Below, piece by piece: positions 1,432-4,343 of a stretch of 64,000 nt of DNA. The translations under genes and the position numbers were made by a program. The DNA is taken from positions 683,164 through 747,163 of the forward strand of contig NZ_NEWK01000002.1 in assembly GCF_002217655.1 (NCBI RefSeq). Direction: 5' to 3'. Origin of the DNA: Geobacillus thermocatenulatus. Its GTDB lineage: Bacteria; Bacillota; Bacilli; Bacillales; Anoxybacillaceae. Under the pieces are notes generated by a model. That model saw nothing but the letters and a program-made list of their open reading frames with translations. It ran no database searches and had not been told where the DNA came from. Position 1 is the stretch's first letter; every line of letters begins with the position of its first letter.

Positions 1432-2331
1432 CTACTCCCCGATCGATTGGACGATGGCAGCAGCGATGCTGTCAAGCGGTGCGATGACATCAACGACGCC
1501 AGCCTCAATGGCAGCAAGCGACTCAAATAATACGTCAACAGCCGGTCGATGGCCGGCGCGCGGCGGCGATTCGTCGAAACGGGCTTTAAGCGCGCCGCCT
1601 TCTTCGCGAACGATGAGATGGACGCCGCCTGGCGCGATATAGGCGGTGCCATTTTGCAGCACTTCCCCGTCTTCCGCCTCCTTGACGGTGATCGCGGCGA
1701 GCGCATGAAGCCGATTGGCGAGCGATGTCGTAAATCCTTTGGGCATATGCTGGACAGCGACGATCGGAGCGGCTAGATCGGGCGGAAGCTGCGTCAGCAC
1801 CGTCTCGAGCGCGCGCGGGCCGCCGGTGGAAGTGCCGATCGCGACGATGGCCTGTTGCGGCCGCCCCGCCGCTTTGAACGATGGGCGCCAAGACGGACGT
1901 TGGCGGCGCGGAGCAGTCAAGGCAGCCACGTTCGCTTCGCTCGCGTGCAGCACTTTGCCAATCAGCTCGTCTTTCACTTTGTACAAATCGAGCGAAATCG
2001 GTCCGGACGGCTTGGCGACAAAGTCGACCGCCCCGTACTGCATGGCGGCGATCGTGTTTTCCGCCCCTTCGGTCGTCGTGCTTGACACCATGACGACCGG
2101 CACGGGATGATCCCGCATGATGCGCTGCAACGTTTCGAGTCCGTTCATGACCGGCATTTCCACATCAAGCGTCACGACATCCGGCCTTAGGGCGGCGATT
2201 TTCTCGAGCGCCTCCCGGCCGTTGCGAGCTGTTCCGATGACTTCGAGGCGCGGATGCTCGGACAAAAAATCACTGATCCATTTGCGCATAAACGCCGAGT
2301 CATCGACGACAAGCACCTTGATCGTCTTCAT
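1432..2331 (-). CDS. cheB: Chemoreceptor methylesterase CheB, apparently lacking part of the catalytic domain
   Basis: CheB demethylates and deamidates chemoreceptors when its receiver is phosphorylated by CheA. The receiver (residues 1-120) is intact, with acidic D10/D11, phospho-site D56 (TLDVEMP) and K107. The esterase part has the nucleophile motif GTSTGG (S168) and the catalytic His in VQHMP (H195). After SPPRAGHRPAVDVLFE the sequence goes straight to AAIEAGVVDVIAPL. The usual segment of about 50 residues containing GMGxDG, with the third triad residue Asp, is missing. The protein is 299 residues against about 350 in the family. The frame is otherwise uninterrupted, so this is an in-frame loss or an assembly artefact. 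It lies between flhG and cheA. The gene call is sure; catalytic activity is doubtful. Confidence 0.93.
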   Translation of the reverse strand: MKTIKVLVVDDSAFMRKWISDFLSEHPRLEVIGTARNGREALEKIAALRPDVVTLDVEMPVMNGLETLQRIMRDHPVPVVMVSSTTTEGAENTIAAMQYGAVDFVAKPSGPISLDLYKVKDELIGKVLHASEANVAALTAPRRQRPSWRPSFKAAGRPQQAIVAIGTSTGGPRALETVLTQLPPDLAAPIVAVQHMPKGFTTSLANRLHALAAITVKEAEDGEVLQNGTAYIAPGGVHLIVREEGGALKARFDESPPRAGHRPAVDVLFESLAAIEAGVVDVIAPLDSIAAAIVQSIGE

Positions 2332-3207: not shown

Positions 3208-4343
3208 CGCTCCGCCCCAAACAGCAGATGAACGAGCCGGTCTGCGGACGCTTCCACCATGTCGTCCGGCACATTTTGTCCGTTCGTGAAATAGGCGGCG
3301 GCAAGCCTGCTGTCAAGCAACATATTGACGATCGTTCCAAACGAGTCCGTCTCATCAAGCTTCGTCACGATCAGCCGATCGATCGGCAGGCGGGAAAAGT
3401 GGTTGTAAACCGTTTTCATATCGTCATACTTTCCCGTGGCGGCGAATACAAGAAACGTTTCCGTTTCACTGTCAAACTCGAGCGTTTGCTGCAGTTCATC
3501 CACGTATTGCGGATTGCGGAAGTTGCGGCCAGCCGTATCGATGAACACGAGATCGCAGCCGGCCAAATTCCGCTTCGCCATCCGAAAATCGTCGGCATTG
3601 TAGCATACTTCCAACGGAGCGTGCAAAATGTCGGCATACGTCTTCAGTTGGTCGATGGCGGCGATCCGGTACGTGTCGGCCGTGATGAACCCGACTTTTT
3701 TCCCTTGTTCGAGGACGGCCCGCCCTGCCATTTTGGCGAGCGTCGTCGTTTTTCCAACCCCGGTCGGACCAAGCAAAATCGTATACTTTTTTTGCTCCGC
3801 CGTTTTGACAAACGGAAGCGGCGACAATAGATCGCGCACCGCTTCTTTCGTCCAAGCGGCAACCGCAGCGGGCGACCGGCCGTCTTTGTCGGCATACCAC
3901 CGTTCAAGCAGGCGATCCATCACTTGGCGGACGTACACCTCCGCCATCCCTTGCCGAACGAGGCGCCGTTCCGCTTCCGCAAGCGGCGGAGGATACAAAA
4001 GCGAAGACGAGCGGGCGTTGAACTGACGGATGAGCGCCTTGACTTCCTCGAGTTCACTGACAAGCGAGCCGTCTCCCTCCCGCTCGGCCGCCGGCAAAGG
4101 GGCAAAAGACGCGGCGGCACTCGGCTGACGCGTCAAAGACGCGGCGGCACTCGGCTGGCGCCGCGGCAGCGGATCTGGATCAACGCCGGCCAACACTTCG
4201 ATCTTTTTTTTCGCAAACAGACCGAAAAATCCGCCGGTCTGCACCACTTTCGAGTGCAAAATGACGGCGTCGCGGCCAAGTTCGGCGCGAACCATTTTCA
4301 TCGCTTCGTTCATGGACGGGGCGACAAATTTTTTCACTTTCAT
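3201..4343 (-). CDS. flhF: SRP-type GTPase FlhF, flagellar placement
   Basis: FlhF is the third SRP-family GTPase beside Ffh and FtsY and marks the site of flagellar assembly at the membrane. The layout is a B domain (residues 1-90), an N domain with coiled segments (about 95-180) and a G domain. The P-loop GPTGVGKTT is at 192-200 and DTAGR at 269-273; VTKLDETDSFG lies near the end. The linker after residue 60 contains a ten-residue tandem duplication (QPSAAASLTR, then QPSAAASFAP), encoded by a 23-bp direct repeat at 4105-4157. Its start shares the ATGA overlap with the flhA stop. The function assignment is firm; the effect of the linker repeat is unknown. Confidence 0.95.
   Translation of the reverse strand: MKVKKFVAPSMNEAMKMVRAELGRDAVILHSKVVQTGGFFGLFAKKKIEVLAGVDPDPLPRRQPSAAASLTRQPSAAASFAPLPAAEREGDGSLVSELEEVKALIRQFNARSSSLLYPPPLAEAERRLVRQGMAEVYVRQVMDRLLERWYADKDGRSPAAVAAWTKEAVRDLLSPLPFVKTAEQKKYTILLGPTGVGKTTTLAKMAGRAVLEQGKKVGFITADTYRIAAIDQLKTYADILHAPLEVCYNADDFRMAKRNLAGCDLVFIDTAGRNFRNPQYVDELQQTLEFDSETETFLVFAATGKYDDMKTVYNHFSRLPIDRLIVTKLDETDSFGTIVNMLLDSRLAAAYFTNGQNVPDDMVEASADRLVHLLFGAERW
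4105..4157. repeat. 23-bp tandem direct repeat in the flhF linker
   Basis: Two identical 23-bp copies lie at 4105-4127 and 4135-4157, with a period of 30 bp (ten codons). They duplicate a QPSAAAS unit in the FlhF B-to-N linker without breaking the frame. The period being a multiple of three is consistent with replication slippage under selection for an open frame. Confidence 0.9.

Follow-up and report, generated by a model that had tools for sequence, protein, structure and literature searches.

An in-frame deletion in cheB of Geobacillus thermocatenulatus removes the triad aspartate and probably methylesterase activity

Does a cheB gene that has lost part of its catalytic domain in frame still encode a working methylesterase, and if it does not, what would carry chemotactic adaptation in the strain? 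The gene in question lies in a stretch of Geobacillus thermocatenulatus DNA of 64,000 nucleotides, referred to here as the window, whose minus strand carries what we take, from similarity and gene order, to be flhB, flhA, flhF, flhG, cheB and cheA. The short protein was identified as the CheB orthologue by sequence identity and by the gene order flhF-flhG-cheB-cheA, with cheB flanked by flhG and cheA as in the related genome G009. The coordinates of the features are collected in Table 1.

Table 1. Features of the cheB region, in positions of the window
Feature	Position	Strand	Basis
cheB, shortened in frame	1432..2331	-	299 aa; ORF, Pfam receiver and truncated CheB_methylest match
Receiver domain, residues 6-112	1996..2316	-	Pfam PF00072 and conserved columns
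Phospho-acceptor Asp56 (role by homology)	codon 2164-2166	-	Receiver domain
Methylesterase domain, retained part, residues 163-276	1504..1845	-	Pfam PF01339, profile positions 1-107 of 174
Catalytic Ser168	codon 1828-1830	-	Invariant column
Catalytic His195	codon 1747-1749	-	Invariant column
Deletion junction, 150 nt (50 codons) gone	1506..1507	-	Alignment with 13 genus relatives
C-terminal tail EAGVVDVIAPLDSIAAAIVQSIGE; aligns collinearly with the full-length C terminus	1435..1506	-	Alignment
cheA, leaving the window; the whole gene in the genome encodes 666 aa	1..1419	-	Comparison with G009; sequence

The preliminary description of this DNA had reported a CheB without about 50 residues, including the GMGxDG loop, in an intact frame, and comparison with relatives bears this out and fixes the size at exactly 50 residues, the triad Asp among them. 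The window cheB corresponds to that of the nearest relatives (349 aa) with exactly 150 bp taken out in frame; the missing nucleotides, which fall between window bases 1507 and 1506, encode residues 276-325 of the relatives. A CheB orthologue was found by protein search in all 14 genus genomes, the window's included, and the alignment to other Geobacillus CheBs, which had been proposed as a check, revealed all 13 genus relatives to be full-length, with 348 or 349 aa and the GMG loop. The nearest CheBs are those of G013 (99% identity to the window protein) and G009 (98%).

The same picture was obtained in the family, where the catalytic profile was matched in 41 of 41 genomes, extending to position 173 or 174 in 40 of them and ending at position 107 only in the window's genome. 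Two other genomes of the family have frames too short for both domains, in which the deleted segment itself is present: the catalytic domain of G037 lies in a 227-aa frame (L112:1483-2055) that lacks the opposite end of CheB, with no intact receiver found just upstream of it, and the catalytic profile of G026 falls in a 242-aa frame at a contig end.

In the order, 348 of the 397 sampled genomes gave a CheB match in a survey that was ranked by best E-value per genome and is insensitive to loss of the receiver end, several of the printed rows having frames of only about 200 aa. By best E-value, only G207 and G385 stand out with a damaged catalytic domain beside the window's genome; four of the six weakest matches other than the window's cover nearly the whole profile, and the rest are G385 and G207. 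The cheB of G385 is spread over three frames, and that of G207 is a remnant consisting of profile positions 136-174, i.e. the last 39 positions (loci L137, L138 and L139 cover these two genomes). One short cheB was also met among 80 named loci, that of Bacillus methanolicus DE0196 (L085:5001-5881), with a frameshift in the catalytic domain that may be genuine or an error of sequencing. Within the 397-genome sample of the order, a cheB damaged in this domain is rare and sporadic.

As to what the short protein retains, Pfam and the conserved columns agree with the earlier listing of the receiver, Ser168 and His195 as present. The PF00072 match scores 88.2 bits, and Asp10, Asp11, Asp56, Ser83 and Lys107 of the receiver are all kept, D11, S83 and K107 being invariant among the homologues and D10 and D56 nearly invariant. 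The CheB_methylest domain is incomplete, its match ending at profile position 107 of 174 yet exceeding the curated cut-off, and the Ser-His-Asp triad is incomplete as well, with the Asp absent together with the TGMGxDG loop (GMGSDG in the relatives).

In total, 37 columns are invariant among 68 full-length CheB homologues and 10 of them lie in the lost block, namely T286, G287, M288, G289, D291, G292, G295, G319, M320 and P321 (L004 numbering). This alignment comprises 68 of 93 homologues (13 genus loci and 80 named loci), the other 25, including the duplicate L032 and the short L085, having been removed by hand for thinning. Counted by hand on the 1a2o alignment, the lost block corresponds to Salmonella residues 271-319, including Asp286 and Met283, and the lost Asp aligns with residue 286 of Salmonella and residue 287 of P. 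atrosepticum, the latter counted in the same way on the 6ymz alignment. Salmonella Asp286 is presumably the triad residue, in agreement with D287 of P. atrosepticum. A figure legend (PMC7698151) lists S165-H191-D287 as the P. atrosepticum triad, and mutagenesis supporting the CheB triad is mentioned in an excerpt of another paper (PMC9825947).

In the AlphaFold model of a full-length relative, the region of the lost block is predicted to form strands 279-284 and 305-310 and helices 293-302 and 320-326, the last of which extends one residue beyond the block, and the further strand 332-334 has no counterpart in the model of the window CheB. The pTM is 0.89 for the full-length relative versus 0.70 for the window protein, whose residues 271-280 have a mean pLDDT of 57, and the TM-score to 1a2o by query length, calculated with Foldseek, is 0.92 versus 0.79. 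The model of the short protein says little on stability because its alignment consisted of full-length relatives. Judged from these predictions, the damage exceeds the missing catalytic Asp, as two predicted strands and two predicted helices are also gone.

The origin of the deletion was sought at its breakpoints. Deletion between short direct repeats, proposed in the preliminary description, finds no support at the DNA level: AAI is repeated at the protein level with unlike codons, the nearest relatives having GCTGCCATT ahead of the lost block and GCGGCGATC where it ends. With the sequences of the 13 relatives standing in for the ancestral sequence, 11 of them show no exactly repeated base at either breakpoint; of the other two, L010 has 3 bp of exact homology on the left side and L015 has 2 bp on the right side. 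Exact direct repeats were rejected as the cause of the deletion on this ground. Slippage between imperfect repeats is possible; a match of at least 6 in 9 is found in 1338 of 53,628 in-frame pairs within the L004 cheB (2.5%), and at a spacing of 150 nt in 2 of 297 pairs of the same gene, including the breakpoint pair.

A single CheB match was obtained by profile search in the window's genome, i.e. a second, compensating CheB was not found there. Reading frames are open, and gene order follows G009, for cheA, cheW, cheC, cheD, sigD and the paired flagellar ORFs; general decay of the chemotaxis operon was rejected on account of these open genes and the kept order. With both ends aligned, length differences from G009 are confined to flhF (380 versus 389 aa) and ORFs of 415 versus 393 and 271 versus 265 aa; the pairs 264 versus 242 and 154 versus 148 look like start choices, the pair 289 versus 224 runs off the compared stretch, and the apparent mismatches at cheW, cheC, cheD and fliR/fliQ are overlapping or antisense ORFs. 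Fifteen ORFs of the window's genome, including fliR and fliQ, have no G009 partner in the comparison, the last ones lying beyond the G009 stretch. A short tandem repeat of the RQPSAAAS type lies in FlhF (window 4104-4160), a protein of variable length among relatives (370, 380, 389, 390 and 400 aa).

Elsewhere in the pathway, the window's genome holds a single copy of cheR, three flagellin-like matches and 9 chemoreceptor matches, 8 of them above the cut-off and one of these 8 split, the range across the genus being 9-13. The split chemoreceptor, located outside the window (G000:C2, L171:1508-3038), is 465 aa long in 4 of 4 relatives and is interrupted by a 133-bp insertion with terminal inverted repeats of about 15 bp, as judged by eye. 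Related copies of the 133-bp element occur in 12 of the 14 genus genomes, two of which have 49 and 40 matches, and the element gave no Rfam match at the gathering score. The split gene is a second chemotaxis lesion in the genome with the short cheB, and short chemoreceptor frames are found in other genus genomes too.

According to the CheW-family search, each of the 14 genus genomes has CheA, CheW and a further stand-alone CheW-like protein, which is 170 aa long in the window's genome; G006 and G011 each have a fourth match. CheV of B. subtilis has about 300 aa, and as the CheW-family frames other than CheA are all at most 240 aa, no CheV was found by this search in the 14 genus genomes. On contig 1, a frame of 184 aa that contains a CheW domain was considered as a broken CheV; it is the second CheW, also present in the other genus genomes.

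The best explanation, held with a probability of about 0.77, is that methylesterase activity was lost recently, and in this lineage alone among the genomes searched, from a chemotaxis system that is otherwise largely intact. The preliminary description had expected a CheB that can be phosphorylated and is probably inactive as an esterase, or else a strain with altered adaptation. The esterase part holds as the most likely outcome given the retained receiver and the lost Asp, the loss being strongly implied by the missing parts; phosphorylation stays a prediction from the receiver, and altered adaptation is plausible by analogy.

As to how this would work, the 150-bp in-frame deletion took away the triad Asp together with its invariant TGMGxDG loop and, by prediction, two strands and two helices, and the resulting protein may fold as a receiver followed by a broken catalytic domain. 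Such a CheB would still be phosphorylated by CheA and would be unable to hydrolyse receptor methyl esters, so that CheR would methylate the chemoreceptors without reversal, save through dilution and turnover. Adaptation would then rest on the CheC/CheD/CheY-P branch, because no CheV was found in the genus, and the cells would probably still swim and tumble while adapting imprecisely, by analogy with cheB deletions of B. subtilis. The intact frame keeps the cheB stop 12 bases from the cheA start and may spare cheA translation.

According to excerpts of one report, cheB deletion in B. subtilis does not abolish running and tumbling, and E. coli without CheB shows tumbling only (PMC340952). The phenotype of the strain is not simply deducible, because cheR cheB double mutants of B. 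subtilis move poorly with excess tumbling, as described in an excerpt of a further paper (PMC7542364); evolved E. coli cheB-deletion lines acquire receptor mutations, according to part of another (PMC12270135). Among the matches listed, judged by title and start of abstract, a published description of this deletion was not apparent.

An artefact of assembly or consensus, under which the strain would possess a full cheB and 150 bp would have been lost in assembly, has to be weighed since the collections used hold one genome per species. It is improbable in view of the genome itself (3.56 Mb, 2 contigs, with completeness rated at 100% and contamination at 0%) and of a deletion that is in frame, which chance would give in one case out of three. 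Collapse of a repeat in particular is less likely because the breakpoints lack an exact direct repeat, the nearest relatives offering none for an assembler to collapse. Far less credible still is a short CheB that keeps some esterase or other activity through rearranged packing. In its favour, the protein still has Ser168 and His195, and the predicted pLDDT exceeds 80 over most of what is left; against it, 10 invariant positions are missing along with two strands and two helices of the predicted fold, and AlphaFold, when its input alignment is made up of full-length relatives, is prone to reproduce the parent fold, stable or not.

Compared with six relatives, the window cheB has 5 synonymous and 0 nonsynonymous private changes, the sum over eight neighbouring genes, with sigD left out, being 81 synonymous and 21 nonsynonymous, and no further lesion was seen in the cheB remainder. 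This undecayed remainder fits a young deletion and, equally, a short protein still under selection, such as a dead-enzyme CheB whose phospho-receiver competes with CheY for CheA or drains phosphate, thereby tuning motor bias. The kept frame and receiver residues, the private changes and the phosphorylation of CheB by CheA in the B. subtilis scheme, as given in an excerpt (PMC340952), are all consistent with selection of this kind, but the short form occurs in only 1 of 41 family genomes, a positive sign of selection for it is absent and a young deletion explains the lack of decay equally well, which leaves it unlikely. A low probability is likewise given to a wider scheme in which receptor methylation would be locked one way, CheB would act as a phosphate-sink receiver tuning CheA and, with no CheV, adaptation would proceed through CheC/CheD/CheY-P only. 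The recent loss of methylesterase activity is preferred to each of these.

Compared with the two-domain CheB of B. subtilis and Salmonella, the window protein is alike in its receiver and in the Ser and His of the triad, and differs in lacking 50 catalytic-domain residues including the triad Asp. The expected effect resembles that of laboratory cheB deletions in B. subtilis and E. coli, where receptor demethylation is lost; unlike these, the window carries a natural in-frame deletion in which the receiver stays, and its effect is predicted. The damaged cheB genes of L085, G385, G207 and G037 resemble it in that the locus is kept in a damaged or shortened state, whereas they involve frameshifts, large loss or loss of the receiver end, and the window's keeps both frame and receiver.

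Should the strain just have lost its precise chemotaxis, whether in nature or under cultivation, the finding would be mainly a warning for annotation, since the short CheB passes the Pfam cut-off and would be scored as functional. The full CheB catalytic domain is present in 40 of 40 other family genomes searched, and a broken CheB beside flagellar genes is a natural experiment: with no CheV found in the genus, it asks what share of adaptation can be carried by the CheC/CheD/CheY-P branch.
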